Part shown: piece after piece, positions 242 through 28,378 of the stretch
Layout of the letters: every line of letters begins with the position of its first letter
Position numbering within the stretch: position 1 is the stretch's first letter
Assembly (NCBI RefSeq): GCF_004349105.1
Contig: NZ_SMLB01000051.1
Location: 1-43,924 of the forward strand
Origin: Jiangella aurantiaca
GTDB lineage: Bacteria; Actinomycetota; Actinomycetes; Jiangellales; Jiangellaceae
Direction of reading: 5' to 3'
DNA: 43,924 bases
The notes under the pieces: model-generated
What the model saw: only the letters and a program-made list of their open reading frames with translations
What the model was told of the DNA's origin: nothing
Databases searched by the model: none
Translations under genes and position numbers: made by a program

Positions 242-313
242 GTTGATCTTGGAGTTGTTCGGCCAATGCGGGGTGAAATGTCCGATAGATGGCCGAACAA
301 CTCCAAGATCAAC
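242..313 (+). repeat. Dispersed palindromic element, copy 1 (72 bp)
   Basis: Perfect 24-bp inverted arms (242-265 and 290-313; the outer end reads GTTGATCTTGGAG) flank a 24-base loop. The same arms and a nearly identical loop recur at 4510-4581 (reversed) and 14313-14383. This copy lies 41 bases past the stop of the upstream gene and 104 bases before the SigB-like promoter of the hemerythrin gene. It could fold as a strong RNA hairpin and act as a terminator or 3'-end stabiliser. No flanking target-site duplication is visible. Confidence 0.9.
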
Positions 314-416
314 GGGAGGGTCCGGGAGCCGAGGTGCACCGGGTCGAGGAGTACGCCGGCCACTGCGGGCACGCCGCCCGGCGCCGTCTGACCGCCGGCT
401 GACCGCGGACCAGGCG

Positions 417-4433: not shown

Positions 4434-4509
4434 GGTGGCGACGCTAGGGGTGTGAGCGCGCTCGAAGGCAAACGGACTGCCGCGCGCCGGGACACGCGGC
4501 CCACCTGAT

Positions 4510-4581
4510 GTCGATCTTGGAGTTGTTCGGCCATCTACCGGACATTTCGCCCCGCAATGGCCGAACAACTCCAAGATCAAC
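4510..4581 (-). repeat. Dispersed palindromic element, copy 2 (72 bp)
   Basis: Arms 4510-4533 and 4558-4581 pair with a single mismatch at 4512/4579. The 24-base loop read on the minus strand matches the loop of copy 1 at 21 of 24 positions, so this copy is inserted in reverse. In that orientation it lies 56 bases past the stop of the gene at 4638-4904. Confidence 0.9.
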
Positions 4582-8949: not shown

Positions 8950-9939
8950 GTGCCTTCCATGGAAGCTAGCTTGCGGTGGGTGCTGGTGACGGCGATCGCC
9001 CCGGTCGCATGGGGCTCGAACTACTACGTCATCCACCAGTTCCTGCCCGACGACCACCCGCTCTACGGCGCGGCGATCAGGGCGCTGCCGGCCGGCATGG
9101 TGCTGCTGGCGGCCTGCCGGCGGCTGCCGCGGGGCGTGTGGTGGCTGCGGTCGCTGGTGCTGGGCGTGCTGAACGTCGGCGCGTTCTTCGTCCTGATCTA
9201 CCTGGCCGCCCTGCTGCTGCCGTCCAGCGTCGCGGCGACGGTCATGGCCGCCTCGCCCGCGGTGATGATGCTGCTGGCCTGGGCGCTGCTGGCCCAGCGC
9301 CCGCGGGTGCGGCAGCTGGCCGCCGCGAGCGCCGGCCTCGCCGGGGTGGCGCTCATGGTCGGTGCAGGCGCACAGGCGCTGGACGTGCGCGGCGTGCTCG
9401 CCTCCTTCGCGGCGATGACGATGTCGTCGCTGGGCTACGTGCTTGCCCGCCGCTGGGGCGACGGCGTCGACGTGCTGTCGTCTACGGCGTGGCAGCTGGT
9501 CGCCGGCGGGGTCGTGCTGCTGCCGATCGCGGTCGCCGTGGAGGGCGCGCCGCCCGCGCTCGACCCGCCGGCGGTGGCCGGCTTCGCGTACACGACGCTG
9601 GTGGCCACCGCGCTGGCGTTCGTCGCGTGGTTCGCCGGGCTGCGGCACCTGTCCGCAGGCGCCGTCGGGCTGGTCGGCCTGCTGAACCCGGTGACCGGCG
9701 TGCTGCTCGGCGCCGGCGTCGCGGGGGAGGTGCTCACCGGCCGGCAGTTCGCCGGGCTGGCCCTCGTGCTCGGCGGGGTCCTGCTCGGCCTGCGCACGGG
9801 GCGAGCGCGCCGGCGGCGCCGCTCAGTGCGGGACGACGGCGACCGGGCAGGTGGCGTGGTGCAGGACGGCCCGGCTGGTGGAGCCGAGCAGCATGCTGCG
9901 CACGTTGCTGCGGCCACGCGAGCCGACGACGACCAGTGA
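8950..9939 (+). CDS. EamA/DMT-family exporter (10 transmembrane helices)
   Basis: 329 residues from GTG 8950, or 326 from ATG 8959. GTG is preferred because AAGGAAG lies five bases before it; that motif belongs to the palindrome, so the choice is uncertain. Two EamA repeats of about five helices are visible (P-V-A-W-G-S-N-Y-Y and later A-W-F-A-G-L-R-H-L-S-A-G-A-V-G-L-V-G-L-L-N-P-V). Family members export amino acids, metabolites or drugs. The last 39 codons run antisense through the universal stress protein gene and form a charged tail without a membrane segment. The adjacent MarR regulator suggests a toxic-compound exporter. Confidence 0.88.
   Translation: MPSMEASLRWVLVTAIAPVAWGSNYYVIHQFLPDDHPLYGAAIRALPAGMVLLAACRRLPRGVWWLRSLVLGVLNVGAFFVLIYLAALLLPSSVAATVMAASPAVMMLLAWALLAQRPRVRQLAAASAGLAGVALMVGAGAQALDVRGVLASFAAMTMSSLGYVLARRWGDGVDVLSSTAWQLVAGGVVLLPIAVAVEGAPPALDPPAVAGFAYTTLVATALAFVAWFAGLRHLSAGAVGLVGLLNPVTGVLLGAGVAGEVLTGRQFAGLALVLGGVLLGLRTGRARRRRRSVRDDGDRAGGVVQDGPAGGAEQHAAHVAAATRADDDQ
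8954..8965. promoter_or_regulatory. 12-bp palindrome, probable MarR operator 2
   Basis: CTTCCATGGAAG repeats the TTCC-N2-GGAA core of operator 1 with a centre-to-centre distance of 21 bp, two helical turns. It overlaps the first codons of the exporter gene. Confidence 0.6.
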
Positions 9940-15235: not shown

Positions 15236-16120
15236 ATGGTCAGTCTGGTGCAGCTGCGCGTCCTCGACGCCGTGCGCCGGCACGGCTCGGTCACCGCGGC
15301 CGCGCGCGAGCTGCACTACACGCAGCCGTCGCTCAGCCACCACCTCGCCCGGCTCGAGGCCGAGACCGGCGCGCGGCTGCTGCAGCGGGTCGGCCGCGGC
15401 ATCCGGCTCACCCAGGCCGGCCGGCTGCTGGCCGACCGCGCGGCCGAGATCATCGGCCGGGTCGACTCGGCGGCGGCGGAGCTGTCCACGCTGGTCGGCC
15501 TGCAGGCCGGACGGGTCCGGCTGGCCGGCTTCGGTTCGGTGATGAGCGCGCTGGTGCCGCGGGCCGCCGCCGTCCTCGCCCAGCGGCACCCGGGCCTGGA
15601 GCTGGGGCTGACCGACACCCATCCCGAGGAAGGGTTGCAGCTGCTGCGGGCCGGGCACGTCGACGTCGCGGTGATCTTCCGGTACGACGAGACCGCGCCC
15701 GAGGAGGACGGCGTCCGCCTGCGGCACCTGCTCGACGACCCGCTCTACCTGCTCGCGACCGGTGGTGGCGGCACGCTCGCCGACCACCGCGACGCGACCT
15801 GGATCGGCGGCTGCGAGCGCTGCCGCAGCCACCTCGTCGAGCTGTGCGAGCGGGCCGGCTTCGCCCCGCGGCTCACATCGACGACCGACGACATGGTGGT
15901 CATGCAGAGCCTGGTCGCCGCCGGCCTGGGCGTGACGACGATCCCCGGGCTGGCGCTGCGGGCGCACCGGAACCCCGCGGTCACCGCCACCCGGCTCGCC
16001 GTCCCGCCGCGCCGGATCTTCGCGGCCACGTACGGCGAGCCGCCCGATCCGCCCGCGACGGCGGCGCTGCTGGCCGCGCTGGATGAGGCCGCCGCGGTGG
16101 TCGGTGAACGGCTTGTGTGA
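15236..16120 (+). CDS. LysR-family transcriptional regulator
   Basis: 294 residues with the LysR HTH (L-R-V-L-D-A-V-R-R-H-G-S-V-T-A-A-A-R-E-L-H-Y-T-Q-P-S-L-S-H-H-L-A-R-L-E) and a periplasmic-binding-like effector domain from about residue 90. It is divergent from the RhtB-type exporter, and its operator lies in the shared 75-base gap, the usual layout for LysR control of an amino-acid exporter. The ligand cannot be deduced. No ribosome site precedes the ATG, in keeping with a leaderless transcript. Confidence 0.92.
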   Translation: MVSLVQLRVLDAVRRHGSVTAAARELHYTQPSLSHHLARLEAETGARLLQRVGRGIRLTQAGRLLADRAAEIIGRVDSAAAELSTLVGLQAGRVRLAGFGSVMSALVPRAAAVLAQRHPGLELGLTDTHPEEGLQLLRAGHVDVAVIFRYDETAPEEDGVRLRHLLDDPLYLLATGGGGTLADHRDATWIGGCERCRSHLVELCERAGFAPRLTSTTDDMVVMQSLVAAGLGVTTIPGLALRAHRNPAVTATRLAVPPRRIFAATYGEPPDPPATAALLAALDEAAAVVGERLV

Positions 16121-16164
16121 TCGATTCGGCGGGTTCAGACTGTGAGGACCTCCCAGGGGGGATC

Positions 16165-17535
16165 ATGTGGGCAGCGATCTCCCCGCCCGGTGGCCCGCCC
16201 TTCGCCATGCGGCTGCGGGACGGGCACCACACCATCGGGCGGGGCGCAGACTGCGACGTGCGGGTCGCCGATCCGGCCGTCTCCGGGCACCACGCGCGCC
16301 TCGACGTGGTCGACGACGGCGTCTGGCTGGCGGACCTGGGGTCGAGGAACGGCACGGTCGCCGACGGGGTCGAGGTGTCGGAACCGATCTGGCTGACCGG
16401 CCCCGCCGAGATCCTGGTCGGCCGGACGACGATCCGGCTGTCGGACGACCAGCCGGACCTGCCCTCCCGCCCGGCTGGTCCGGCCGGCGTCCACGGCCGG
16501 ACCGTGCCGATCCCTGTCCCTGATGACGAGAACGGAACAGGCACGAGGGATCCGCGCCTGCCGTGGTACCGGCGCGGCCGAGCCGCCGTGATCGGGGCCG
16601 GATCCCTGGCGACGGCCGGCCTGGCGGTGCTCGCCCTGTGGAACGAGGTGTTCCCGGACGATCCGGAGGACGCCGCCACGATCACCTCGGCGGGCGTGGT
16701 CCGGCAGTCCTCCCTCAGCGAGTTCGTCCAGGGGGTCCCGGACCCCGAGGTCGCGCTGTCTTCGGGATCCGGGACCGCTCCGGCCGTCCCGCCCGACGCC
16801 GTCGCGATGGCGGCCGGCGACGTGGCCCCCGGTCAGACTGCCGCCGCGGAGGAGACCGCGACACCCCAGGACACCGGGTCACCGGACGACACGGAGTCGC
16901 CCGACGAGACTGGCACCCCGACGGACACCGGCACACCGACCGACTCCGGCACACCGACGGAGACCGGGTCACCGGCGGGCGCGACACCGAGCGAGCGCGA
17001 ACTGTCGCCAGAGGTCCGGACGGACGCGGCGGCGTGGCCGCCGCCCGAGGAGTTCGTCGACGACGTGGCCGCCGACCCTGTCCTGGCCCGGACGGTGTTG
17101 CCCGCTGCGCCGCAGGTCGTCGCGCGGCTGGTCTCCGACCTCACCGATGCCGAGGACTCCGGCGAACTGCTCCCGCCCGACGAGGTGGCGGCACGGCTCG
17201 CCGACGCGCTGCGGGACGTGGAGTCGGTCGACGACGATGACGGTAGGAGCGATCCTCTGGGCTGGGTGGTGGCGGTCGATCTGGAGGCGCACGGGCTCGA
17301 GGATGCCGCGTTGCTGCTCACCTGGTCGCTGCACGGACTCGACGTGCCGGTGAGCTGGGCGGCGGAGACGATCGCCTATCGGATCACGCCGGGCACGGCC
17401 CACGACACCGGCAGCATCGACGTGTGGGTGCCGGACCTGGACGTGCCCGGCACCTACCGCGTCAATCTCAGACTCGCCCTGGAGTCCGACGGCAGCCTTC
17501 TGGACCAGGGCGACCCGCTCGACCTCCCGGACTAG
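16165..17535 (+). CDS. FHA-domain single-pass membrane protein
   Basis: 456 residues. Residues 20-95 form an FHA fold (H-T-I-G-R-G-A-D-C-D, S-G-H-H-A-R-L, L-G-S-R-N-G-T), which binds phosphothreonine. A helix at about 140-160 is the only membrane segment, so FHA is cytosolic and the rest is outside if the topology is usual. A Thr/Pro/Asp/Glu-rich linker with short G-T-P-T-D-T-like repeats (about 225-275) precedes a 170-residue domain, mostly beta, ending W-V-P-D-L-D-V-P-G-T-Y-R-V-N. The domain is unrecognised. ATG 16165 follows AGGGGG. It is convergent with, and 18 bases from, a subtilase. No kinase is nearby. Confidence 0.85.
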   Translation: MWAAISPPGGPPFAMRLRDGHHTIGRGADCDVRVADPAVSGHHARLDVVDDGVWLADLGSRNGTVADGVEVSEPIWLTGPAEILVGRTTIRLSDDQPDLPSRPAGPAGVHGRTVPIPVPDDENGTGTRDPRLPWYRRGRAAVIGAGSLATAGLAVLALWNEVFPDDPEDAATITSAGVVRQSSLSEFVQGVPDPEVALSSGSGTAPAVPPDAVAMAAGDVAPGQTAAAEETATPQDTGSPDDTESPDETGTPTDTGTPTDSGTPTETGSPAGATPSERELSPEVRTDAAAWPPPEEFVDDVAADPVLARTVLPAAPQVVARLVSDLTDAEDSGELLPPDEVAARLADALRDVESVDDDDGRSDPLGWVVAVDLEAHGLEDAALLLTWSLHGLDVPVSWAAETIAYRITPGTAHDTGSIDVWVPDLDVPGTYRVNLRLALESDGSLLDQGDPLDLPD

Positions 17536-17553
17536 TGCTCGGCCCGGCGTGGC

Positions 17554-18774
17554 TCAGGGCGCCTTGCTCAGGCCCACGCCGCGATCGGCGATGTCGACGT
17601 CGGCGGCCAAGGCGCCGGTGTCGGCGCTGGCCAGCAGCCGCGAGACCACAGTGGTGGCGGCCGTCGGCAGCGGCGACGCGGCCACGTCCTCCCACCACAG
17701 CGCGGCGATGCCGGCCACGTGCGGGGTCGCCATGGAGGTGCCGTTCAGGCTCCTCAGCCCGCCACCCGTCCGGGCCGAGACGACGCCCACGCCCGGCGCG
17801 CTGACCTGAGGGAACGTGTTCGAGAACGGGGCGATGGTGAGACCGCCGGCCGACTGGGCCAGCGCCCCGATCGAGACGATGCCCTCCGCCGCGGCGGGAA
17901 GCGACGCGCCGATCTCGAAGCCGGGGTCGATCTGGCGCTCGCTCTCGTTGCCGGCCGCCGCGACGACGACCGTACCGGCCGAGAACGCGGCGCGGCTGCG
18001 GATCAACTGCATCAGCGCGTCGAACATGCGCAGGTTCCCGCGGTAGGCCTCGAGGGCGGCGGAGGTCGCCAGCTCTACCGGCCAGCCCTGGTCGACCAGG
18101 CGCTTGACCAGGCCGGGGAAGTCGAACCCCAGCGACATGGAGACGACCTGGGCGCCGCTCTGCACGGCCCACTGGATGCCCTGGAACACCATGTCGGAGC
18201 TGCCGCGGCCGTCGTCGCCGAGGACCTTGCCGATCAGCGCCGTCGTGACGCCGGGCGCGACACCGATCCGGGTGCCGTCCACCGCGCGCCCGAAGACGGT
18301 GCCCGCGACGTGCGTGCCGTGACCCTGCTTGTCCCCGTTGCCGGAGCCGGAGAAGTCCTGCTCCACGAGGGTGACGCCTTGGAACGCCGGGTGCACGGCG
18401 TCGATCCCGGTGTCGAGCACGGAGACGACCACCCCGGCCCCGCTGCGCGCCGACGTGTCGGCACCGACCGCGGACACCCCCCACGTGCTGCCGGCGGCGC
18501 TCGCGTCGGCGACGGGATCGCCCAGCTCGGCTCCGAGATCGCCCAGGGCGTCGTCGGCAACGGGCCGGGTCAGGCTGGTCGGCATCACCGGCGCGATGGC
18601 CCGGACCTCCGGATCGCGCGCCACGTCGCGGACGTCGCGCTTGTCGAGCGGCAGCACATCGATCCGCGGCTCGCCCGGCAGCTCGGTCGCCTCGAGCTCG
18701 AACCCGCCGCCGCCGAACGGCTCGCGGCTGGTGGCCCGGCTCATGTCGCGCAGGATCGCGTACGTCGTGTCCAT
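17554..18774 (-). CDS. Cytosolic subtilisin-like serine protease (S8)
   Basis: 406 residues. The S8 catalytic set is complete: V-V-S-V-L-D-T-G-I-D (Asp121), G-H-G-T-H-V-A-G (His152), the oxyanion Asn in A-A-A-G-N-E-S, and N-G-T-S-M-A-T-P-H-V-A-G (Ser347). There is no signal peptide or membrane helix, so the enzyme acts inside the cell, unlike most subtilases and unlike mycosins. The first 100 residues form an acidic N-terminal region that could be an inhibitory pro-domain. ATG at 18774 has a GGGGGG leader. It is divergent from the second subtilase at 18979 and sits beside the FHA protein. Probably part of the protease/NTPase module. Confidence 0.93.
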   Translation of the reverse strand: MDTTYAILRDMSRATSREPFGGGGFELEATELPGEPRIDVLPLDKRDVRDVARDPEVRAIAPVMPTSLTRPVADDALGDLGAELGDPVADASAAGSTWGVSAVGADTSARSGAGVVVSVLDTGIDAVHPAFQGVTLVEQDFSGSGNGDKQGHGTHVAGTVFGRAVDGTRIGVAPGVTTALIGKVLGDDGRGSSDMVFQGIQWAVQSGAQVVSMSLGFDFPGLVKRLVDQGWPVELATSAALEAYRGNLRMFDALMQLIRSRAAFSAGTVVVAAAGNESERQIDPGFEIGASLPAAAEGIVSIGALAQSAGGLTIAPFSNTFPQVSAPGVGVVSARTGGGLRSLNGTSMATPHVAGIAALWWEDVAASPLPTAATTVVSRLLASADTGALAADVDIADRGVGLSKAP

Positions 18775-18978
18775 GGTGCCCCCCTCGGTCCGCGCCGCGC
18801 CCGGCCGCGCTGACCACAGGAGAGTTCCACCAGACGATGAGCCGGTGATCTCCGTCCCCCGAAACCGGCCGCGGCAGTGTCTACCTCTGCCCTACTCGCT
18901 GCCGCACCGGCTGGCAAGCCCCTGACGCCCGGTTTGTCTGCCATGATCGACACACCGTGATCGCTGGGGGTGAGCGAC

Positions 18979-20634
18979 ATGCGAGGACGGGACCCGACGG
19001 TGGCATCGGTGCGGCTGCTCGTGCGGCCGCGAGGCGACGACGATCACCCGGAACGGCTGCGGCAGGGGATCGACCGGGTGCTCGGCGCGGCCGACGAGCT
19101 CGGCCGGCCGTGGGCGGTCGAGTCGCTGTTCCCCGGTGCGACGGAACCGGAGCTCCAGCGGCACTGGGTGGTGAGCGGAGCCGTCCAGGCGGGACCGGCG
19201 TACGACGTCACCCGCGTCGCCTATGATCTCGCTGCGGTCGTGGCGCGCGAGCTCGACGCCGACGTCGAGCCCGATCTCCCGTCGTCGGCCTACGGTGTGG
19301 AGCCGCGCGAGGATGATGCCGTCGACATCGGCGAGTCGCTCGGCGACACCCGCGGCGTCCACCTCCCGGGCTCCGACGACTTGACGTGGGTCGTCGACGC
19401 CGTCCGGGCCCGGGCCGCCTGGGCGCTGCCCCCGCCTCCCGGCGGCGCGGACCGCGGCGCGGGCGTGCTCGTCGGCTCCGTCGACACCGGCTACACCGAC
19501 CATCAGGAGCTGGCCGGCGCATGGTCGTTCGACCTGGACCATGACGTTCTCGACGGCGACGAGGACGCGCGCGACCCGCTGCGCCGGCGCTGGTACATGC
19601 CGCTGGACTCGCCCGGTCACGGCACCCACACCGCCAGCGTCATCGGTTGCCGTGGCGCCGGCGCACTGCTCGGTGTGGCGCCCCGGGCGACCATCGTGCC
19701 GATCCGCTCCGTCAAGAGCGTCGTCCAGGTGCTCGACGGCGACGTCGCGCGCGCCGTGCACGAGGCACACCGGCGCGGCTGCCGGGTCATCACGATGTCT
19801 CTGGGCGGCCGCGGCTTCTTCGGCCTGCGGACGGCCATCCGGGCGGCGCTCGACGACGGCGTCATCGTCATGGCCGCGGCCGGCAACAAGGTCGGCATCG
19901 TCGTCGCACCCGCCTCGTATCCGGAGTGCATCGCCGTCGCGGCGACCAACGCCGACAGCGAGCCGTGGCCCGGATCGTCGCGCGGGCCGGCGGTCGACGT
20001 GTCGGCGCCCGGCGAGAGCGTCTGGGTCGCCTCCGTCGACGCGCGGGCCGACCCGCCGGCGTTCAGCGAGCGCCGGCACCACGGCACGTCGTTCGCCGTC
20101 GCGACCCTGGCGGGGGTGGCCGCGCTCTGGATCGCCCACCACAGCCACGACCGGATCGTCGCACGGGTCGGCCGGGCGAACGTGCACGCGGCGTTCTTGC
20201 ACCTGGTGCGCTCGCACGGCCACCGGGTGCCGCCCGGCTGGACCGAGCACGGCTGGGAGGAGCTGTACGGCGTCGGCATCGTCGATGCCGCCTCCCTGCT
20301 CCCGGCGCCGCTGCCCGACGAGGCCGACCTCGTGCCGACGGAGGCGCCGGAGGTCGCCGACCCGGTGAGCCGGCTGAGCGCCGTCCTGGTCGGCCTCAGC
20401 CGCGAGGAGGTGCGCGTCCGGGTCGCGGAGCTGCTGGGCACCGCGCCGCAGGCGGTGGACGACCTGCCGTTGGCCGCCGTCAGCGAGTTGGTCTATCGCC
20501 TGGGCGAGGACGACATGCTGCGCGCCGGTCTCACCGCGCCGCCCGGCGACATCGAGCTCCCGGACCGGCCCGGGGCAGCGGCGCGGAGGCTGCTGGAGCG
20601 GACGGCGTCGCGCGCGTTGCGGGCCGCCGTCTAG
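18979..20634 (+). CDS. Cytosolic subtilisin-like serine protease with helical tail
   Basis: 551 residues from ATG 18979 (GGGGGTGAG upstream); a GTG at 18970 is an alternative. Catalytic Asp169 (G-S-V-D-T-G-Y), His214 (G-H-G-T-H-T), Asn303 (A-A-G-N-K) and Ser371 (H-H-G-T-S-F-A-V-A-T). The first 150 residues are a distinct acidic domain. The last 110 residues, after the S8 fold, are helical and acidic, with L-S-R-E-E-V-R-V-R-V-A-E-L-L-G-T-A-P and a possible adaptor role. No signal peptide. Its stop TAG shares four bases with the stop of the trypsin-like gene at 20631, end to end. Confidence 0.92.
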   Translation: MRGRDPTVASVRLLVRPRGDDDHPERLRQGIDRVLGAADELGRPWAVESLFPGATEPELQRHWVVSGAVQAGPAYDVTRVAYDLAAVVARELDADVEPDLPSSAYGVEPREDDAVDIGESLGDTRGVHLPGSDDLTWVVDAVRARAAWALPPPPGGADRGAGVLVGSVDTGYTDHQELAGAWSFDLDHDVLDGDEDARDPLRRRWYMPLDSPGHGTHTASVIGCRGAGALLGVAPRATIVPIRSVKSVVQVLDGDVARAVHEAHRRGCRVITMSLGGRGFFGLRTAIRAALDDGVIVMAAAGNKVGIVVAPASYPECIAVAATNADSEPWPGSSRGPAVDVSAPGESVWVASVDARADPPAFSERRHHGTSFAVATLAGVAALWIAHHSHDRIVARVGRANVHAAFLHLVRSHGHRVPPGWTEHGWEELYGVGIVDAASLLPAPLPDEADLVPTEAPEVADPVSRLSAVLVGLSREEVRVRVAELLGTAPQAVDDLPLAAVSELVYRLGEDDMLRAGLTAPPGDIELPDRPGAAARRLLERTASRALRAAV

Positions 20635-21707
20635 TCGTCCACGAGTGCGTCGTCGAAGTTGATGCCGGCGCCGGCGGTCAGCGGGTCGTCCACCAGGCGC
20701 CAGGCCGGAACGGCGAAGTTGCCGACGCCGTATCGGCCGCCGAAGTGCAGGCCCAGCACCCGGTGGGTGGCGAGGTCGAATACCGGCGAGCCGCTGTTCC
20801 CGCCCAGCGTCGAGCAGTCGTGCCGCAGGACGACGGCGGGGTCGGCGGACGCGGTGGTCCGGCCGGGCTGCAGCCGCTTGACGTTGTAGAGGTCCATGAA
20901 GATCCGCCGCATCGGCTCCGGCTCGTTGCGGCGGCCGTCCCAGGCGGGATAGCCGACGACGTAGACCTGCCGGCCGATGACGTCGTCAGGCGCGACCGCG
21001 GCGATGCGCAGGGGCGACGGCAGCGCCCCGTCGTCCCGGGGCTCGACCCGCAGCAGGGCGAGGTCGACGTCGTCGGCGTCGTGGATGCCCACGACCTCGG
21101 TGACGGTGAACTCGAGCCGGTCCGCGCTGCCGGCCTCGCGGACCAGGTCGACGGAGGAGGCGCGGCCGCTGATGAACGTCCACGCGCCGGCGATCCCGCG
21201 CGCGAACTCGAGCGCCACGTGCCGGTTCGTCATCACCAGGCCGGGGCCGACGAGGAACCCAGTGCCGACCCAGTCGAAGTCGGGATGCCCGGTGACCTCG
21301 ACCCGGCCCACCCGTGCGATCGAGTCGCGGATGGCCGCACGCTGGGCATCCAGCACCGTCCACTGGGCCGGCGGCGTCCCGAAATCGCCGCCCTGCACCA
21401 GCAGAGCCGGACGACCCTCGAGAAGTACGATCGCCTCCAGGCCGAATTCCTCGGCGGGCGTCAGTTGCGTGCCCGGGTCCTGCGCGAGCTTCTCCAGGCC
21501 GCGGGCGCCGTCCAGCAGCGCCTCGCCGCGCGCCTCGCGAGCCGCCCGCGCCAGTCTGGCGGACCGGGCGTCGGCCGCGGGCAACGCCTCCGCGGACTCC
21601 GCACTCTCCAGCTCCGCCTCGGCGCGCTTGCGCACCCGGTCGGCCACCGCGCCGAGATCGTCGAAGACCTGTGCGACGTCGGTGGCCACGGGCGACCTCT
21701 GTGCCAT
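20631..21707 (-). CDS. Cytosolic trypsin-like serine protease
   Basis: 358 residues. Trypsin-fold triad: V-G-T-G-F-L-V-G-P-G-L-V-M-T-N-R-H-V-A (His163), D-D-V-D-L-A-L-L-R (Asp215), C-S-T-L-G-G-N-S-G-S-P-V-F (Ser305), with a G-Y-P-A-W-D strand. The first 115 residues are helical and charged and end in a domain of unknown role; no signal peptide. It is the last gene of the minus-strand operon, starting 34 bases after the EAD-trypsin gene. The ATG has a GGGGGG leader. Confidence 0.92.
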   Translation of the reverse strand: MAQRSPVATDVAQVFDDLGAVADRVRKRAEAELESAESAEALPAADARSARLARAAREARGEALLDGARGLEKLAQDPGTQLTPAEEFGLEAIVLLEGRPALLVQGGDFGTPPAQWTVLDAQRAAIRDSIARVGRVEVTGHPDFDWVGTGFLVGPGLVMTNRHVALEFARGIAGAWTFISGRASSVDLVREAGSADRLEFTVTEVVGIHDADDVDLALLRVEPRDDGALPSPLRIAAVAPDDVIGRQVYVVGYPAWDGRRNEPEPMRRIFMDLYNVKRLQPGRTTASADPAVVLRHDCSTLGGNSGSPVFDLATHRVLGLHFGGRYGVGNFAVPAWRLVDDPLTAGAGINFDDALVDD

Positions 21708-21741
21708 GACCGTCCCCCCTCGTCTCGTGCCCGGGCGATCG

Positions 21742-22863
21742 CTACCGCCCGTGCGGTATCTCGTCCCACACCGCGGGGAATCGTTGTGTCAGATCGCCGG
21801 CGACGGCGGACATCTGGGTGCCGACGTTGATGTACGAGCTGGGTTTGCCCTGGAACTTCACGTCGACGCGGCGGGCGCCGCGGTGTAGTGCGCACGCCGT
21901 CCAGCCGTCGGTCAGCACCGGCGAGCCGGAGGAGCCACGCTGGGTGTCGGTGAAGTAGCGGACGTCCAGGTCGGTCGTGTCGTACACGACGTTGTTGCGC
22001 AGCCCGATGCGCTTCGGCTTGCCCTCGGGGTGCTGGATGACGTTGACCGCCACGTTCTGGGCCAGCTCGGCCTTCAACGGGTCGGCGCGGATCGGGATGG
22101 GAGAGCGTCCGGAGTCGGCGGCCAGCCGCGCGACGGCGTAGTCGAGGTCCAGTGACCACGCGACGATGCCGCTGCACGCCGCCTCGACGCCCGCGGAGGC
22201 GTCCTCGTCGTAGTCGAAGAGCACGACGGCGTGCTCGGCCTGCAGCGCGAGGTCGGCGTCGGACGCGCGCGGTGCCGGGCCGTCGATCGCCGATCGCGCG
22301 TTGATGACGTGATGGTTGGTGATGACGAGGTCCGGCGCGATCAGCCAGGCGGTGCCGGCGTGCGGATGGGCGCTCCCGCCATCGGGGTTCGTGCGCGGCG
22401 CGCCGTCCTGGTACGGCGGGACGACGATGCGCCCGACCGCCCGGCCGGCCGCCGTCCCGCCCGCGAGGAACCCGAACGGCACGGTGTCGTCGCCGAAGAC
22501 GATCTCCTCCGGCAGGTCGGCCTCGGTGGCGGCGCCCAGGTCCGGTTCGCCGGCGGCGGCACGGCTGACCTGGTCGCGGGCCTGCTCGAACACCTCGCGC
22601 GGCCCGGCCTCCGCGGTGTTGCGGGCCGCGTTGTGCAGCCAGAGCTGCAGCGGGACGCGTCCGTCGACGAGCCGTTCGACGCCGTTCATCCGCATCAGGT
22701 CCGACGTGATCTGGGCGGCCGGGATCGGCAGCTGCGGCAGCGTGGCGACGTAGAGCGGCAGGACGCCCTGGAACAGAACCGGCCGCCACTGCGGGTCGGG
22801 GTAGGCCGCCAGCGCCGCGTCGCGCACCGCGTCCACGTCGTCAGGCGACAGGTACTCGCTCAT
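21742..22863 (-). CDS. Trypsin-like protease with N-terminal effector-associated-type helical domain
   Basis: 373 residues. Residues 1-100 are an all-helical domain (D-D-V-D-A-V-R-D-A-A-L-A-A-Y-P-D-P, then L-P-I-P-A-A-Q-I-T-S-D-L-M-R-M-N-G, then V-P-L-Q-L-W-L-H-N-A-A-R) with the layout of the effector-associated domains described for STAND/protease conflict systems. This is an inference from pattern, not a measured match. Then the trypsin triad: His185 (L-V-I-T-N-H-H-V-I), Asp241 (L-D-L-D-Y-A-V-A-R-L) and Ser312 (R-G-S-S-G-S-P-V-L). No signal peptide. Its ATG overlaps the STAND stop codon (ATGA), implying translational coupling. Confidence 0.88.
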   Translation of the reverse strand: MSEYLSPDDVDAVRDAALAAYPDPQWRPVLFQGVLPLYVATLPQLPIPAAQITSDLMRMNGVERLVDGRVPLQLWLHNAARNTAEAGPREVFEQARDQVSRAAAGEPDLGAATEADLPEEIVFGDDTVPFGFLAGGTAAGRAVGRIVVPPYQDGAPRTNPDGGSAHPHAGTAWLIAPDLVITNHHVINARSAIDGPAPRASDADLALQAEHAVVLFDYDEDASAGVEAACSGIVAWSLDLDYAVARLAADSGRSPIPIRADPLKAELAQNVAVNVIQHPEGKPKRIGLRNNVVYDTTDLDVRYFTDTQRGSSGSPVLTDGWTACALHRGARRVDVKFQGKPSSYINVGTQMSAVAGDLTQRFPAVWDEIPHGR

Positions 22864-25808
22864 GGCGCCGGGGGACTTCCCGGTGGCTCCCGCACGACCG
22901 GCGGGAGATCCGCGGACATCGCGGCGGCGATCCCGGCGCGCAGCGACCCGGTGTCGTCGCGGAGCGTCAGCAGCTCGCGGGCGAGCTCGTCCAGCAGGCC
23001 GCGCTGCTCGGCGTCATGGAGCAGCCGCTCGACCTCGCCGGCGTTCGGCTCCGGCGGCCGCTCGGCCAGGGGGTCGGCGGTGCGGGAGATGACGTCGACG
23101 ACGGCGGGCTGATCGTGCGCCGTGTCGGCGATCGCCCGAGCCAGCGCTGTCCGGGCGGGCGGGGAGTGCGCGGGCAGACCCACCAGGTCCAGGGCGCGCG
23201 CGAGCACGGCAGGTACGCGGTCGCCCACTGCCGCCGCCACGGCCCGCACGAGGGATGTCTGTCCGGCGAGGATCTCCTCCGGCATCGCCTCGACCCGGTG
23301 CGCGAGCTCGGTGACGAGGTCATGCTGGTGGTGGTCGCCGGCGTCCGCCGAATCGGGCAACCGGGTCCGCTGCAGCAGGGCCCCGAGAGCGTCCAGGTCG
23401 CGGCCCATCCTGGTCGCCGTGCGCTCGGCGAGGGCGAGGTCGTCGTCCGCCCACTCGACGTCGCCGGACTCCGCGGCGATCCGGGCGGAGAGCAACAGCA
23501 GTTCCAGGTATGCGTCGCCGTTCTCCTCGATGCCGGGCTCGGCGAGTGCGTCCGCCACGGCCTGCCGCGCCTGCGCGAGGTCGCCAGTGCGCAGGAGGGC
23601 CTCGACGCGGACGGCGTGCAGCGGGCTCCCGGTGGTCCACGGCCGGCGGGCCGAGAGCAGCGTCAGCGCCTCGGCCGCGTAGCCCTGCGTGAGCAGGTTC
23701 TCCGCCTCATCTGCGGTGCGGTGCTCCCAGTCCGCCTGGTCGTCCTGCGCGGTCGCTTCGGCCGGCATGCTGCGCTGCAGCCGGGCGAGCAGCTTGGCAC
23801 TCCGTGCGGGCAGCTCGTCCGCGACTCCGTCGAGCAGCGGCGCCAGCTCGGAGAGCCAGCGTGCCTCGATCTCCTGAGCTCCCTGGCCCAGCCGGAGCCG
23901 GTGGTAGACCTCCTCGACCCGGTCCTCCGGGCGGCGCGAAGCCGCGTAGAACGCGACGGCGCGACGCTCGAGCTCGCGGGTGGCCTCGGCGCGGTCCTCG
24001 GCGACCAGCCGCACCATGACACGTCGCACGTCGGCGCGGTGCCGCAGCACGTCCGGAGCGGTGCGGTCGACGAGGTCGAGCTCGCGCGCCAGCTCCTCGA
24101 AGAGCTCGTCGGCCCGGCCCGGCCGCGACACGTCGACCCCGCAGACCGGGGCCAGCACCTGCTCGATGATCGCGGGCGTGATCCGCCGCAGGACCAGCCC
24201 GGGATGGGCGAGGCGGCGGACGTCGGGATTCGTGATGTGGCTGAGCAGCCGGTAGTAGAGCACGCCCTGGATGAGCATGTCGTCGACGGCGCCGAACAGC
24301 CGGCGGCGCCGGGCCGGCACGGTCCGCACCCAGTCGCCGTCGTCGCCGGTGTGCTGCATGCGCACGGCCACGTCGGCGGCGAGCTGCAGGCTCAGCGGGT
24401 TGCCGCCGATGCGCTCGACCAGGGCGCGGGCCACCGGGTCGGTGACGCCGAGGGTGCGCAGCAGGTGCACCGCCGCCGCCTCGTCGAGGTCGCCGAGCGT
24501 GAGCGTCGGAACCTCCTCGGCCGGGGCGGCAGGGTGGCCGACGGGGGCCCGGCCGGCCACGACCACCCGCGTCTGCGGGTAGGCGTCACGCAGCGCGGTG
24601 AACATCGCCCACATGCGGTCGAGAATGGGTGAGGCACGGTACTGCGCCTCCTCGAAGGAGTCGAGGGCGACGATCAGCGGCGGCTCCTCACCGGTCGCGG
24701 CCGGGTGCCGGGCGACGGCCCGCCGCAGCGTCCGGCCGAGGGTGTGGGCGGCCTGCGCGTCCTCGTCGCGGGTCTGCGTGTGGTACCGGTACTTGGCCTC
24801 GCGGCCCAGGCTCGCGCGGGTGGTCACCACGTCCTCGAGCTCGTCCAGCTCCTCGAACTGCTGGCGCTGCAGCCGCGACTGCGATCGCGCGGACGACCGG
24901 AGGTCGTCGAGTGCGGGTGCCTCGTCCGGGTACTGCGCGGCCAGCTGCCGGGCCATCTCGGCGACCAGACTCACCGGTTCCTGGATGCGCAGCGTGGCGC
25001 TCTCGAAGTCGACGTGGACCCACGGGACCCGCCCGCCGGGACGGTCGACGTGGTCGAGGAGGAAGCGCGCCATCAGCGTGCTCTTGCCGACGCCGCCGGG
25101 TCCCGTGACGACGAGCGGCAGCTCGCCGTTGGCGCGCCCGAGCCAGCCGTTCACCGCGCGGCCCGCGTCGGCCATCCGGGCGCGCCAGTGCCGGGCGGGC
25201 AGCAGGCCCACGTGCCTCCGGAGCACGTCGAGCTCGCGCGCCCGCCCCGCGAAGCCGTGTCGCAGCAGGGAGTGCAGTGGCTCGACGAGCCGCCGGTGGT
25301 CGAGGAGCCGCTCGATCTCCTCCGCTTCCGGCAGGCCCGGCACGCCGGGGACGAGGGACAGCCAGGAGACCGCTTCGCGGGCGTGGAGCAGCGACTCGAC
25401 GTCGAGGTTCTCGAGCACCGGCGGGTCGCCTCGGAGGTAGCGGAGGGCCAGCCGCTCGGCGGCGTGGCGCGGCGCCGAGCCGATGTTGGTCTCCAGCGCA
25501 AGCCGGGCCTCCTCCGGCCCGGCGAAGGACTGCAGCGCCGTCGCCCGGACGTCGGACCGCAGGGCCCACGCGGTGCGCGCCTGGCCGGCCCGGGCCGTGC
25601 AGTCGTCGACGAGCTGGAATCCAGTCCCCGTGGGGGCGGCACCGGCCGGATGCAGGCTCCCCGGGTCGAAACTCGTCAGCAGCGCGGCGGCCTGCCGCAG
25701 TTGCTGTTGCTCGGGCGGCACCTCGGTCTGCGCCGGCTCGGCGGAGCGCAGCCGGTCGCGCAGCCGCGCGGCGAAGTCGTCCGCGGACCAGTCAGCCGGC
25801 GTAGACAT
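22860..25808 (-). CDS. Large STAND-type NTPase with helical-repeat C terminus
   Basis: 982 residues. A helical N-terminal region of about 210 residues is followed by the NTPase: Walker A G-P-G-G-V-G-K-S-T (236-244), Walker B L-I-V-A-L-D-S-F-E-E-A (378-388), sensor-type strand V-V-V-A-G-R, and the STAND G-N-P-L (468-472). A winged-helix-like region follows, then some 400 residues of alpha-helical repeats of TPR-like type (A-Y-L-E-L-L-L-L-S-A-R-I-A-A-E-S-G-D). In such proteins the repeats sense a ligand and the NTPase oligomerises to switch on effectors. ATG 25808 overlaps the upstream NTPase gene by 17 bases. The trigger is unknown. Confidence 0.88.
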   Translation of the reverse strand: MSTPADWSADDFAARLRDRLRSAEPAQTEVPPEQQQLRQAAALLTSFDPGSLHPAGAAPTGTGFQLVDDCTARAGQARTAWALRSDVRATALQSFAGPEEARLALETNIGSAPRHAAERLALRYLRGDPPVLENLDVESLLHAREAVSWLSLVPGVPGLPEAEEIERLLDHRRLVEPLHSLLRHGFAGRARELDVLRRHVGLLPARHWRARMADAGRAVNGWLGRANGELPLVVTGPGGVGKSTLMARFLLDHVDRPGGRVPWVHVDFESATLRIQEPVSLVAEMARQLAAQYPDEAPALDDLRSSARSQSRLQRQQFEELDELEDVVTTRASLGREAKYRYHTQTRDEDAQAAHTLGRTLRRAVARHPAATGEEPPLIVALDSFEEAQYRASPILDRMWAMFTALRDAYPQTRVVVAGRAPVGHPAAPAEEVPTLTLGDLDEAAAVHLLRTLGVTDPVARALVERIGGNPLSLQLAADVAVRMQHTGDDGDWVRTVPARRRRLFGAVDDMLIQGVLYYRLLSHITNPDVRRLAHPGLVLRRITPAIIEQVLAPVCGVDVSRPGRADELFEELARELDLVDRTAPDVLRHRADVRRVMVRLVAEDRAEATRELERRAVAFYAASRRPEDRVEEVYHRLRLGQGAQEIEARWLSELAPLLDGVADELPARSAKLLARLQRSMPAEATAQDDQADWEHRTADEAENLLTQGYAAEALTLLSARRPWTTGSPLHAVRVEALLRTGDLAQARQAVADALAEPGIEENGDAYLELLLLSARIAAESGDVEWADDDLALAERTATRMGRDLDALGALLQRTRLPDSADAGDHHQHDLVTELAHRVEAMPEEILAGQTSLVRAVAAAVGDRVPAVLARALDLVGLPAHSPPARTALARAIADTAHDQPAVVDVISRTADPLAERPPEPNAGEVERLLHDAEQRGLLDELARELLTLRDDTGSLRAGIAAAMSADLPPVVREPPGSPPAP

Positions 25809-26928
25809 CGAGCACCCCTTCGGTAGCGGTGGCGATCGCACGCATATAGCAGGCGCCCTGCTGCTGGCTCTCCTGGGCTGCGGCGATCACCGCGCGGAGG
25901 GCGACCTCGACGTGCTGAGCGAGCAGTGTCTCGTCGACCGCGCCGCCGTTCGCCACGCGTTCCTGCGCCTCCCGGAGGACGACGGTGAAGAAGTCGCGCA
26001 GGTCGAGCTCACCGATGGGACTCACGGTGTCCCAGACGACCTGCTTCGGCGGCAGCGGCAGGTCGGCGAGGTCGTCGTCGTACCCGAGCAGCAGCAGACG
26101 GGGCCGGCGCACGCCGCCCGCCAGCGACATCTCCGAGACGACCGACGCGAGCTGCGCGATCAGCTCGACGGCGTCCGAGCCCGGGTCGAGCTCGTCGCAC
26201 TGGTCGAAGATGATCCACCACCACTGCTCCGGCGTGAGCTGGACCTGCTGCGCGACCCACAGCGCCCAGTAGCGCAGCCGCTTGATCGGGTCCGCGATCG
26301 CGTCGGACGGCAGGCCATCGCGGGCGATCTGCAACTGCAGCTCTCGCATGACGTCCGAGGCCGAGCTCGACCGGTCCAGGACGACGCGCGCGTACGAGAA
26401 CCCGCAAGGGGCGGCCAGGTGCTGGATCAGCTGGTAGGTGTAGGACTTGCCGACGTCGCGATCGCCGATGACGCGCAGCACGATCGGCTGTGGCCGGCCG
26501 GGCTCCGGCACGACCATGCGCCGCAGCGAGGACCGCACGGGCAGCCGGTCGATGAACACCTGACCCGACCCCGGCAGCACACGCGCCTGGTACGGATCCA
26601 CGTTGTACAGCGCCGCCTTCTCCGCCCGCAGCCGCTGGAGGTACTCCGTCACTTTGGCCAGCTCCGCCGGCTTGGCGACCTGGATCGTCGGCAGGCGGGC
26701 GAGTACGCCAAGCAGCCGGATCGACAGCGGCTCGTCGTCGCCGGGGGAGGAGTTCCGCGCCAGGTTGACGAGCATCCGCGCATTGTCGCTGGCCACGTTG
26801 GTGATGTGCCAATGAGCGATGTCGTCCGGGAAGTACGTCTTGAGCACCTGGAAGGGGTTGTCGGTGCCCACGAGGTCGTCGAGGACGAGCTGACAGACCA
26901 GGTCCCATTCGTGTTGATCGAGTGGCAT
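25792..26928 (-). CDS. P-loop NTPase with N-terminal effector-associated-type domain
   Basis: 378 residues. Residues 5-100 form an all-helical domain (W-D-L-V-C-Q-L-V-L-D-D-L, W-H-I-T-N-V-A-S-D-N-A-R-M-L-V-N-L-A-R-N, E-P-L-S-I-R-L-L-G-V-L-A-R) whose pattern resembles the N-terminal domain of the trypsin-like product of 21742-22863. The ATPase has Walker A G-D-R-D-V-G-K-S (155-162) and Walker B W-W-W-I-I-F-D-Q-C-D-E-L (236-247). It looks like the inactive-STAND/initiator ATPases of conflict systems. The first of four overlapping genes; ATG 26928 follows an AGGGGGCGG leader. It could recruit the protease through the shared domain. Confidence 0.82.
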   Translation of the reverse strand: MPLDQHEWDLVCQLVLDDLVGTDNPFQVLKTYFPDDIAHWHITNVASDNARMLVNLARNSSPGDDEPLSIRLLGVLARLPTIQVAKPAELAKVTEYLQRLRAEKAALYNVDPYQARVLPGSGQVFIDRLPVRSSLRRMVVPEPGRPQPIVLRVIGDRDVGKSYTYQLIQHLAAPCGFSYARVVLDRSSSASDVMRELQLQIARDGLPSDAIADPIKRLRYWALWVAQQVQLTPEQWWWIIFDQCDELDPGSDAVELIAQLASVVSEMSLAGGVRRPRLLLLGYDDDLADLPLPPKQVVWDTVSPIGELDLRDFFTVVLREAQERVANGGAVDETLLAQHVEVALRAVIAAAQESQQQGACYMRAIATATEGVLDVYAG

Positions 26929-26963
26929 CGTGGACCGCCCCCTTGATGCCGTGTCCCTCGTGC

Positions 26964-27407
26964 CTACGGACGCAGCTCCGCGCGTCTCTCACCGGATCGC
27001 GCCGCTTCGCCGATGCGGCGATCCGCGCGCCGGCCCCGGGCGTCGTCGTCACCGCTGCTGATCGCGAAGGATGCCTCGCCGAAGCCGCCGACGGTCAGGT
27101 ACGCGACCACCAGCGCGACCACGGCGATGACGCCGCCCAGTGCGGCGGCCCAGTTCGCCGCGGCGATGCCGGCATCCGCACGTTGGACCGCCCACCAGGT
27201 CAACGCGAGCGCCGTCGCGCAGGTGAGCAGCGAGAAGACGATCAGAACGGCCCGCCAGCGCGGGCCCAGCCACGCCGGCTGGCTGGCCGACACCTCGACC
27301 CCCGGGAGGACGTGGCCCAGCCCTTCCTCGTCGTCGCCGGCGCCGGCTCGGGTCGCCGCCTGGTACTGCTGCCACACGTCGCGCCGCACATCCTCATACG
27401 CCCCCAT
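26964..27407 (-). CDS. Two-helix membrane protein at the head of the protease/NTPase operon
   Basis: 147 residues: a cytosolic acidic N terminus of about 50 residues, helix 1 (A-V-L-I-V-F-S-L-L-T-C-A-T-A-L-A-L-T-W-W), helix 2 (W-A-A-A-L-G-G-V-I-A-V-V-A-L-V-V-A-Y-L), and a charged C-terminal tail of about 40 residues, probably cytosolic. ATG 27407 follows GGGGGG. It lies 35 bases before the EAD-type NTPase. Two-helix proteins serve as membrane effectors or anchors in several defence systems; here that is a suggestion only. No family is recognised. Confidence 0.75.
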   Translation of the reverse strand: MGAYEDVRRDVWQQYQAATRAGAGDDEEGLGHVLPGVEVSASQPAWLGPRWRAVLIVFSLLTCATALALTWWAVQRADAGIAAANWAAALGGVIAVVALVVAYLTVGGFGEASFAISSGDDDARGRRADRRIGEAARSGERRAELRP

Positions 27408-27483
27408 GGCGCCCCCCAGAACGATCTCATCCCCATTGTGAACCCGACGATCGTCCCTGGTAACCCCTCATCCGGCTCGCGCT

Positions 27484-27528
27484 TGGCGATGGGTTGCGGC
27501 GTGGTGCACGCAGGCACTGGCGATGGGT
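27484..27528. repeat. Two direct copies of TGGCGATGGGT
   Basis: The 11-mer occurs at 27484-27494 and 27518-27528, 34 bases start to start. The gap 27408-27583 is the leader of the protease/NTPase operon, so these could be binding sites for its regulator. The second copy also belongs to the hairpin at 27522. Confidence 0.5.
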
Positions 27529-27570
27529 GAGGGATCGGGGTATCCAGGGCAACCCGGATCCTCACTCATC
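27522..27570 (-). terminator. Hairpin after the ABC permease gene
   Basis: Arms 27522-27541 and 27552-27570 can pair over about 18 bases with a few mismatches and a 10-base loop. It begins 13 bases past the permease stop (27584) in the direction of transcription. No T-run follows, as is usual in high-GC actinomycetes. Confidence 0.5.
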
Positions 27571-27583
27571 TCCCGCATGACCG

Positions 27584-28378
27584 TCACGACCGCCTGTAGA
27601 GCCGGGCCGTGAGCGGGGCGAACACCGCGGTGACGGCGGCCGCCTCGGCCAGCGCAAGCCCGACCTCGGCGCCGGCCGGCTCGCCGTAGAGCAGCGCCCG
27701 CACCGCGTCGACCAGGTGCGATATCGGGTTGACGTCGACGAACGCCGCCACGGCGCCGGGCAGCGTCGCGGGGTCGACGAACACGTTGCTGACGAACACC
27801 AGCAGGAAGATCGCCATCATGCCGATGCCCTGCACGGCGCTGGCGCTGCGCACGGCGAGGCCGAGCGTCGTGAACAGCCACGACAACGCGAACGCGAACC
27901 CGACGACGAGCAACGCGGCGGCCAGCACGCCGACCACGCCGCCGTCCGCGTCGAACCCGAGCAGCAGCCCGGTGACGACGATGATCGCGGCGGTCGCGGC
28001 GTACCGGACGGAGTCGGCCAGCACGGCGCCGACCAGCGGCGCGGCCCGCCAGCCGGGCAGTGACCGGAACCGGTCGACGACCCCGGCGGAGCGGTCGGCC
28101 TGCAGCGTGACGCCGGCCTGGACGGCGGTGAGCAGCACCCCCATCACCAGGATCCCTGGCAGCAGGAACTGCAGGTAGTCGCCGGTCGTGCCGGAGATCG
28201 CGCCGCCGAACACGTAGGTGAACATGACCAGCAGCAGGATCGGCCCGATGGTGACGTCGACCAGCTGCTCGGGCACCCGCCGCAGCTTGAGCAGGCCGCG
28301 CCGGGCGTATGCGGCGGTGGTGGCGACGGCGCCGGCGCGCGGCGGGCGCGGGCCGCCGGTGAGCAGCTCGATGGTCAC
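27584..28378 (-). CDS. ABC-2 type exporter permease (DrrB-like)
   Basis: 264 residues, six predicted transmembrane helices in the ABC-2 arrangement (P-I-L-L-L-V-M-F-T-Y-V-F-G-G, F-L-L-P-G-I-L-V-M-G, A-L-S-W-L-F-T-T-L-G-L and a C-terminal N-P-I-S-H-L-V-D-A-V-R). DrrB-type permeases work with DrrA ATPases to export drugs. The GTG start at 28378 overlaps the ATPase stop as GTGA, so the two are translated together. Confidence 0.9.
   Translation of the reverse strand: MTIELLTGGPRPPRAGAVATTAAYARRGLLKLRRVPEQLVDVTIGPILLLVMFTYVFGGAISGTTGDYLQFLLPGILVMGVLLTAVQAGVTLQADRSAGVVDRFRSLPGWRAAPLVGAVLADSVRYAATAAIIVVTGLLLGFDADGGVVGVLAAALLVVGFAFALSWLFTTLGLAVRSASAVQGIGMMAIFLLVFVSNVFVDPATLPGAVAAFVDVNPISHLVDAVRALLYGEPAGAEVGLALAEAAAVTAVFAPLTARLYRRS

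Follow-up and report, generated by a model that had tools for sequence, protein, structure and literature searches.

In the lysis pathway described by Banks et al. 2026 (PMC13236601), LypA combines a CARD, a trypsin and an ATPase domain without Walker residues, LypB consists of an N-terminal domain, an AAA+ domain and TPR-like repeats, and LypC joins a trypsin to a NucA-type endonuclease. As reported there, LypA, LypB and LypC are all needed for lysis, which requires both peptidases and the LypB ATPase and does not need the catalytic residues of the endonuclease; lysis mediated by gene transfer agents (GTAs) depends on LypABC. Kaur et al. 2020 (PMC7159879) described EAD5 as an adaptor domain of predicted conflict systems, counted it with those EADs whose main role is to recruit effectors, and predicted proteolytic cascades of the sort considered below. 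Tuck et al. 2025 (PMC12799240) showed for AVAST and Hachiman that trypsin-like proteases cut and activate a pro-nuclease, and that forced dimerisation of the Hachiman protease leads to toxicity. Here we analysed a window of 43,924 nucleotides from Jiangella aurantiaca (contig NZ_SMLB01000051.1), in which eight adjacent genes encode a STAND NTPase, a further P-loop NTPase (NTPase2), two trypsin-like proteases, two subtilases (S8a and S8b), an FHA protein and a small protein with two predicted transmembrane (TM) helices (TM2). Judged from homology, this EAD5-bearing island is related to CARD-NLR/LypABC and to the NucA-trypsin 'System 3' of Kaur et al., since NTPase2 matches the LypA-like ATPase and the second trypsin matches trypsins fused to NucA or to S8b-type subtilases. 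By analogy with these systems it is likely to be an NLR-like conflict island executed by proteases, in which oligomerisation of the STAND protein would cluster the EAD5-bearing trypsin and start a proteolytic cascade leading to cell death or arrest.

Organization of the island

The eight genes, in high-GC DNA, are flanked by a LysR gene (15236-16120) on one side and by an ABC transporter region, starting at about 27590, on the other. The closest named proteins to those encoded in the window are from Jiangella mangrovi (88-91% identity). Five of the eight genes form a compact minus-strand operon in which neighbours are separated by 34 and 35 bases or overlap by 4 and 17 bases. The first operon gene encodes TM2 (26964..27407; 147 amino acids (aa), helices at about residues 53-71 and 88-106 by hydropathy) and is followed by NTPase2 (25792..26928), the STAND NTPase (22860..25808; 982 aa), the EAD5-trypsin (21742..22863; 373 aa) and the second trypsin (20631..21707). 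The STAND gene, read from the ATG at 25808, overlaps NTPase2 by 17 bases, while its overlap with the EAD5-trypsin gene is ATGA. S8b (18970..20634, plus strand) is convergent with the second trypsin, their stop codons overlapping; S8a (17554..18774) is on the minus strand and the FHA gene (16117..17535; the start may be 16165) on the plus strand.

Matches above the Pfam cut-off were obtained for FHA (residues 39-94, 5e-14), Peptidase_S8 in S8a (2e-38) and S8b (8e-33), Trypsin_2 in the second trypsin (6e-21), EAD5 (residues 4-133, 8e-39) followed by Trypsin_2 (1e-13) in the 373-aa trypsin and, just above cut-off, AAA_16 in the STAND protein; none was obtained for NTPase2 and TM2. The STAND protein consists of an N-terminal domain (about residues 1-190), AAA_16 with the Walker A motif GPGGVGKS, the GGNPL motif and a long C-terminal part in which the Pfam scan matched no repeat family. 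NTPase2 carries GDRDVGKS in a P-loop domain preceded by a probable EAD5-like domain (residues 1-115). The FHA protein contains one predicted TM helix at about residues 156-174 (hydropathy), a Pro/Thr-rich linker and a C-terminal domain.

The catalytic triad is H185, D241 and S312 in the EAD5-trypsin and H163, D215 and S305 in the second trypsin. Among aligned relatives, some rows of which are redundant, the first triad is kept in 105 of 105 rows and the second in nearly all of 66 (H in 65, D in 66, S in 65). The best 19-residue hydropathy value is 1.48 in S8a, 1.62 in S8b (inside the catalytic domain) and 1.08 and 1.39 in the trypsins, and the scan gave no convincing TM segment in any of the four proteases. 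As both subtilases also score far below the cut-off of the mycosin model, secreted mycosin-like processing was rejected. Compared with the Protein Data Bank, the EAD5-trypsin alignment found 10 chains similar to its protease part alone, FAM111A being the best (1e-10), followed by glutamyl endopeptidases and an exfoliative toxin; the same comparison for a LypA-like protein, the STAND protein and NTPase2 gave nothing useful.

An earlier note on this DNA had listed the eight adjacent genes, four intact serine protease triads, two P-loop NTPases, the STAND motif set, the five-gene operon with its ATGA and 17-base overlaps and proteases lacking a membrane helix, all of which our analysis bears out. 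It had missed the EAD5 adaptor at the start of the 373-aa trypsin, newly found by the Pfam search, and the TM helix of the FHA protein.

A conserved operon core and its fusions

Search of genome contigs with the EAD5-trypsin alignment yielded 95 relatives, the best 80 of which were analysed; together with the copy in the congener G001 they make 81 loci, scored by tblastn with the window proteins up to 10 kb on each side. Because 64 of the best 80 are Streptomyces loci, the locus counts are not independent. STAND lies directly upstream of the EAD5-trypsin in 77 of the 81 loci; among the four without it, the contig starts close to the match in L028 and L086 and does not in L084 and L094. NTPase2 was detected in 68 loci by tblastn and in six by a blastp gene cluster (L085, L088, L089, L091-L093), and the second trypsin follows directly downstream in 66. 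The four-gene core (NTPase2, STAND, EAD5-trypsin, trypsin) keeps its gene order in Amycolatopsis and in the majority of the Streptomyces relatives. Beyond Actinomycetota, NTPase2, STAND and EAD5-trypsin (NTPase2 by tblastn or cluster) occur together in Bacteroidota (Chitinophaga, Niastella, Flavobacterium, Spirosoma and an uncultured Cytophagales), in Sphingomonas, in the myxobacterium Pyxidicoccus and in an acidobacterium. A scan of genome contigs with NTPase2 found no relative.

NTPase2 and STAND share one stop-free reading frame in 37 of the 81 loci, and in 21 the EAD5-trypsin joins that same frame. At L061 (5672-11179) a single protein of 1,835 aa contains AAA_22, AAA_16, EAD5 and Trypsin_2 (Pfam). 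These fusions imply that NTPase2, STAND and EAD5-trypsin would belong to one complex.

The Amycolatopsis copy of the module (L048 711-16350) has a protein with an NPHP3_N/NACHT-like match on one side and, on the other, a serine recombinase together with a separate weak match to FtsK, an arrangement resembling an integrative element.

NTPase2 and a probable adaptor pair

Family profiles were searched against 53 genes chosen from plasmid relatives of the window STAND and of S8b and from other plasmid loci. The NTPase2 P-loop profile matched the C-terminal half of five of the six LypA-like trypsins (L156, L157, L158, L162 and L163; E 3e-14 to 4e-5; L161 missed) and the stand-alone genes of L159 (2e-34), L155 (7e-14) and L160 (3e-4). 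Profile-profile alignment (hhalign) of this domain with the LypA-like C-terminus, including protein P0185 of Caulobacter sp. NIBR1757, gave 95% (E 3e-8, 174 columns), and five other pairings run beside it gave at most 1.3%. The relation is a distant one, as hmmsearch with the P-loop reached just 2 of 120 LypA-like database proteins at E < 1e-3.

Across 91 aligned NTPase2 sequences the Walker A motif reads GRS in 61, GKS in 26, GTS in 3 and GKT in 1, so that Arg or Thr replaces the lysine in 64, and the Walker B aspartate is kept in all 91. With the lysine often lost and the aspartate always kept, it is plausible that NTPase2 of Streptomyces binds nucleotide without hydrolysing it. Where the earlier note saw a second sensor, NTPase2 is probably a partly degenerate, adaptor-type ATPase. 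Its assignment as an ordinary second STAND was rejected, given the frequent loss of the Walker A lysine and the alignment with the LypA-like C-terminal domain.

The N-terminus of NTPase2 aligned with EAD5 at 52% (hhalign, E 1.5e-4), rising to 66% (E 5.5e-5, 92 columns) with six EAD5 regions from plasmid loci added, second EAD5 copies among them; the best of 44 null blocks, for which parts of the STAND, trypsin and LypA-like alignments were taken in forward and in reversed order, reached 3.9%. At the Paracoccus locus L159 the trypsin and the NTPase2-type gene both carry EAD1 (Pfam 8e-11 and 2e-13) beside a STAND gene. It is probable that NTPase2 and the first trypsin of Jiangella both bear EAD5-type domains.

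Comparison with described systems

The profile of the window STAND matched full-length NLR-like proteins of plasmids with E values from 7e-159 (L159) to 1.7e-31 (L163), and a 188-aa fragment in L162 with 7e-9. For the NLR-like partners of LypA-like proteins (L156, L157, L158, L161 and L163) the best stretch had an E value of 3e-81 to 5e-21. The second-trypsin profile matched the trypsin of trypsin-NucA proteins (L148, L161 and L163; E 7e-75 to 9e-57) and the C-terminal trypsin of S8-trypsin fusions (L157, L158 and L162; 3e-42 to 3e-35, with Pfam agreeing on two).

Like the CARD-NLR/LypABC systems of Caulobacter and of the Lysobacter gasdermin operon, the Jiangella island has an adaptor-trypsin, a LypA-type degenerate ATPase, an NLR-like protein with its own N-terminal domain and a LypC-type trypsin, and both are rare and patchy. 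Unlike them, it has EAD5 in place of CARD as the adaptor, and the ATPase domain, which LypA carries on the trypsin, is here a separate gene (NTPase2) or, in relatives, fused to STAND. NucA is lacking from the genome and gasdermin from the eight genes, whereas two subtilases, the FHA protein and TM2 are added. DefenseFinder has a subtilase subtype of CARD-NLR.

With System 3 as described by Kaur et al. (PMC7159879) the island shares several trypsins, S8 peptidases, STAND, EAD adaptors and the logic of a proteolytic cascade; in Jiangella the multiple trypsins, S8 and STAND are present together as adjacent genes, and NucA stands beside many of the Streptomyces relatives. System 3 in that description is mostly alphaproteobacterial, partly EAD1-based and built on a NucA core, whereas the Jiangella island is actinobacterial, EAD5-based and free of NucA. 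AVAST type I, nuclease-protease pairs and Canu, as presented by Tuck et al. (PMC12799240), similarly join STAND or another sensor to a trypsin-like protease that activates a pro-effector, and include caspase-nuclease loci; in those systems, unlike the Jiangella island, the nuclease has an MBL fold and the protease forms a fusion with a defence enzyme. At E 0.1 no Avs model of PADLOC matched the window STAND, and AVAST or any other PADLOC system was rejected, the PADLOC matches being generic or weak.

A likeness to the MoxR-vWA VMAP ternary systems is seen on a Rhizobium phaseoli plasmid (L148 7623-18248), where a trypsin-NucA gene, an EAD5-trypsin, an EAD5-VMAP and MoxR stand in a row, as an EAD5 pair inside a MoxR-vWA system. 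None of MoxR, vWA and VMAP is among the eight Jiangella genes, which excludes the EAD5-trypsin as a MoxR-vWA part here.

The earlier note had no name for the layout, which can be assigned to the relatives of CARD-NLR/LypABC and of the EAD/NucA-trypsin systems, with an adaptor of the EAD5 type. Since almost all of its elements have described relatives, the system does not amount to a new kind. In the literature searched, which did not cover the tables of Kaur et al. and Wein et al. 2025, we found no variant in which EAD5 stands in for CARD, the ATPase domain has left the trypsin for STAND, the effectors are exchanged, and two subtilases and a 2-TM protein are present.

A predicted effector slot

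The position upstream of the core appears to hold interchangeable predicted effectors. In the 64 Streptomyces loci it is occupied by caspase C14 in 50, NucA in 45 and an alpha/beta-hydrolase in 32, and the best match of each kind always lies upstream of NTPase2 on the same strand; the families were assigned by Pfam on examples, and at least 3 of these loci lie on contigs with too little upstream sequence for a decision. Of the 16 non-Streptomyces loci, 5 have phospholipase D (PLD)-type genes, 5 have trypsins of another kind and 2 have NucA (downstream in L093); trypsin-LCAT fusion proteins are present in L087 and L092. Beside the core of Sphingomonas L091 (1659-5024) a 1,121-aa protein with DUF7379 and CHAT is encoded, possibly another swapped effector.

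Endonuclease_NS occurs exactly once per genome in four of the five EAD5-bearing Streptomyces among 393 genomes sampled from the class, 4.3-5.3 kb from the EAD5 gene, and gave no match in the fifth or in G001. In Jiangella aurantiaca TM2 takes the slot. A homologue is present in the same slot of Amycolatopsis (L048 5566-6033; 38%, E 3e-14), and the G001 copy is 83% identical. From this placement we infer that TM2 is the local candidate membrane effector.

Occurrence of the island within the genus

Compared with the congener G004, the island extends from 16097 to 27588: window position 16096 corresponds to base 9323 and 27589 to base 9319 of L144, with three bases between them. In this empty site the LysR gene is joined directly to the ABC region and the eight-gene span is missing. 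G001 carries all eight genes with order and orientation unchanged, and 5.4 kb of extra genes (VanY-like, histidine kinase and insertion sequence-type, named from sequence) separate its second trypsin from S8b. The G004 empty site and the full copy in G001 suggest that the eight genes are one unit of acquisition, and the common order, the clean empty site and the conservation of the core in other phyla make the grouping more than chance.

Six congener regions (G002, G004, G007, G009, G010 and G011) were compared at the LysR-ABC spot, G004 being the only clean empty site. G010 has TetR-like and GroEL-like genes there (L145 7764-10091; named from sequence), G007 another long open reading frame (ORF) and G002 S8b; G011 shows neither flank gene and the G009 contig ends first. 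Among 12 genomes of the genus NTPase2 was found in 2, the C-terminal half of the FHA protein in 2, S8a in 2 (E 1e-60) and S8b strongly in 3. The empty site, the alternative contents and the patchy presence mark a variable spot with an accessory module, and the 11.5-kb island, accessory in nature, is complete in two of the 12 genomes. The LysR-ABC junction resembles a hot spot of the genus.

A GC-rich, hairpin-like stretch at the right end of the island (about 27526-27572) also directly follows S8b in G002, which hints at an internal deletion there. Just past the 2-TM gene of G001 lies an AbiEii toxin/AbiEi antitoxin-type pair (L095 4805-6303; Pfam), and AbiEii genes are also near relatives on a Caulobacter plasmid (L155, Pfam) and a Sphingomonas plasmid (L147, annotation).

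Membership of the subtilases and the FHA protein

S8a and S8b are 29% identical and belong to distinct S8 subfamilies. S8b gave 15 plasmid matches (E 1e-25) in five genera (Rhizobium, Sinorhizobium, Ruegeria, Paracoccus and Polaromonas), and its closest relatives on plasmids, at 37-42% identity, are S8 and S8-trypsin proteins linked to STAND. In one locus examined per genus, a LypA-like trypsin gene adjoins or lies at most 1.6 kb away and a STAND gene comes next, which in Sinorhizobium L162 is truncated; in 3 of the five loci the S8b-type subtilase is fused to a LypC-type trypsin. Because independent plasmid loci tie it to STAND and trypsin genes, S8b is likely a part of the system.

S8a gave 8 matches in the plasmid collection (E 1e-30), with relatives among caspase, CHAT, TIR, NucA or trypsin genes in four proteobacterial plasmid lineages. 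A further relative, in Nonomuraea (L154, an 11.9-Mb record that is evidently a chromosome), follows a NACHT gene. Its neighbourhoods are mixed, with conflict genes on plasmids and nothing of the system in three actinobacteria, and its membership is for that reason rated as possible. An Agrobacterium plasmid (L146 2186-21173) has a dense peptidase conflict cluster in which an S8a relative is accompanied by a further S8, a trypsin-NucA fusion, a caspase, two TIR genes and four CHAT genes.

The C-terminal half of the FHA protein was found in 3 of 393 genomes sampled from the class, once outside the genus, where the FHA part was unmatched and no other part of the system lay on the 6.6-kb contig. 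Its linkage is at the genus level only and its membership unproven; perhaps it provides a membrane-side input.

Proposed mechanism and alternative explanations

Genes, motifs, homologies, fusions, synteny and island presence or absence are established directly, and the following scheme is modelled on them. The complex of STAND and NTPase2 would be sensor and switch. On a trigger, phage or other, the STAND protein would oligomerise, as suggested by its class and by the published work on AVAST and LypB. The EAD5-like domain of NTPase2 may then pair with the EAD5 of the trypsin, a step proposed from domain similarity and from the EAD1/EAD1 pair of Paracoccus, and such pairing would gather copies of the EAD5-trypsin and activate it. 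The activated protease could switch on a second tier made of the LypC-type trypsin and its partner subtilase S8b. Cleaved effectors would finally kill or arrest the cell; elsewhere these may be a NucA nuclease, a phospholipase-type enzyme or a caspase partner, and here most likely TM2 and/or the subtilases. The idea of the earlier note, a STAND switch of conflict type driving a protease cascade, finds good support for its outline in the homologies, the gene fusions, synteny and the behaviour of the island, while its details needed correction.

Several observations weigh against this interpretation. The link to LypABC was drawn through look-alikes, the sequences compared being LypA-like plasmid and database proteins with their NLR-like and trypsin neighbours. 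EAD5 and the LypA-like N-terminus gave 0.2% in hhalign, and sequence comparison showed no CARD on the first trypsin. The EAD5-like domain of NTPase2 depends on the 66% profile match: hmmsearch with the N-terminal profile found nothing among the 53 selected genes, and the Pfam EAD5 model, even at E 10, matched only the trypsin in the whole genome. EAD5 exceeds the cut-off in 9 of the 393 class genomes, and in two of these, from another genus (G189, L097; G235, L099), tblastn found no STAND, NTPase2 or trypsin match nearby; EAD5 seems to be used there in some other setting. PADLOC returned only generic or weak matches in the window (subtilase 9e-23, IetS, RT-protease, LmuA, mad8). Endonuclease_NS has 0 matches in the Jiangella aurantiaca genome, which rules out NucA as the effector here. 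The literature searched contained no experiments on any EAD5 member.

The remaining adverse points concern the extent of the module. None of the 80 distant EAD5-trypsin loci had S8a, S8b or FHA matches (tblastn, E 1e-6), G002 has S8b alone at the spot with no operon, against its dependence on the rest, and S8a orthologues in three actinobacteria (L173-L175) have ordinary-looking neighbours and no other part of the system (tblastn). The system could thus be the five-gene operon only, with S8a, FHA and perhaps S8b as separate cargo of the same integration spot, a composition that the other genes at this spot in G010 and the 5.4 kb of other genes in G001 would also fit. We regard this explanation as a serious one, if rather less probable than not, since G001 keeps the order of all eight genes, S8b-type subtilases are fused to LypC-type trypsins or lie near a LypA-like trypsin and STAND in five plasmid lineages, and S8a-type ones stand beside conflict-type genes in four. 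Of the eight-gene candidate module of the earlier note, only the four-gene operon core is kept in distant genomes.

The same machine might instead serve programmed lysis or developmental death, as LypABC does in releasing GTAs, and not antiviral defence. The need of GTA-mediated lysis for LypABC (PMC13236601) speaks for this, as does the share of Streptomyces in the best 80 loci. Members of Streptomyces are filamentous and developmental. We consider such a purpose unlikely here, because the presence in 2 of 12 genus members and the signs of mobility (relatives on plasmids and the serine recombinase beside L048) fit an accessory conflict system better. That these are ordinary protein turnover or export-linked processing genes, adjacent by chance, is very improbable: S8 and trypsin families are common and both S8 proteins do score, however poorly, on the mycosin model, but the EAD5 domain, STAND linkage, triple fusions, effector-slot swapping, the empty site and the proteases without a convincing TM segment all argue otherwise.

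Returning to the protease-executed conflict island, an adaptor of the EAD5 or EAD1 type is repeatedly surrounded by the LypA-type ATPase domain, the NLR and the LypC-type trypsin, which bridges the EAD conflict systems, predicted in 2020, and the CARD-NLR/Lyp systems, which have been tested from 2025 onwards. More tentatively, a conserved machine of NLR-like STAND and NTPase2 might take varied homotypic adaptors (CARD, EAD1, EAD5) and varied protease-activated killers (gasdermin, NucA, phospholipase D, hydrolase, caspase, subtilase, 2-TM protein). Jiangella would then represent an inflammasome-like, two-tier cascade of four proteases, leading to an undescribed membrane effector through an adaptor unrelated in sequence to CARD. 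If so, bacterial inflammasome-like pathways would follow a rule, the swapping of CARD for EAD, that can be tested directly, and the fusions of NTPase2, STAND, EAD5 and trypsin in Streptomyces (about 1,800 aa) would offer a convenient single-protein target for biochemistry and structure.

Outside the island, two opposite-strand ORFs near the left end of the window (243-330 and about 4490-4580) share near-identical first 25-30 residues (LILELFG.CG.KCP.DGRTTPRST), which amounts to a short inverted repeat there.

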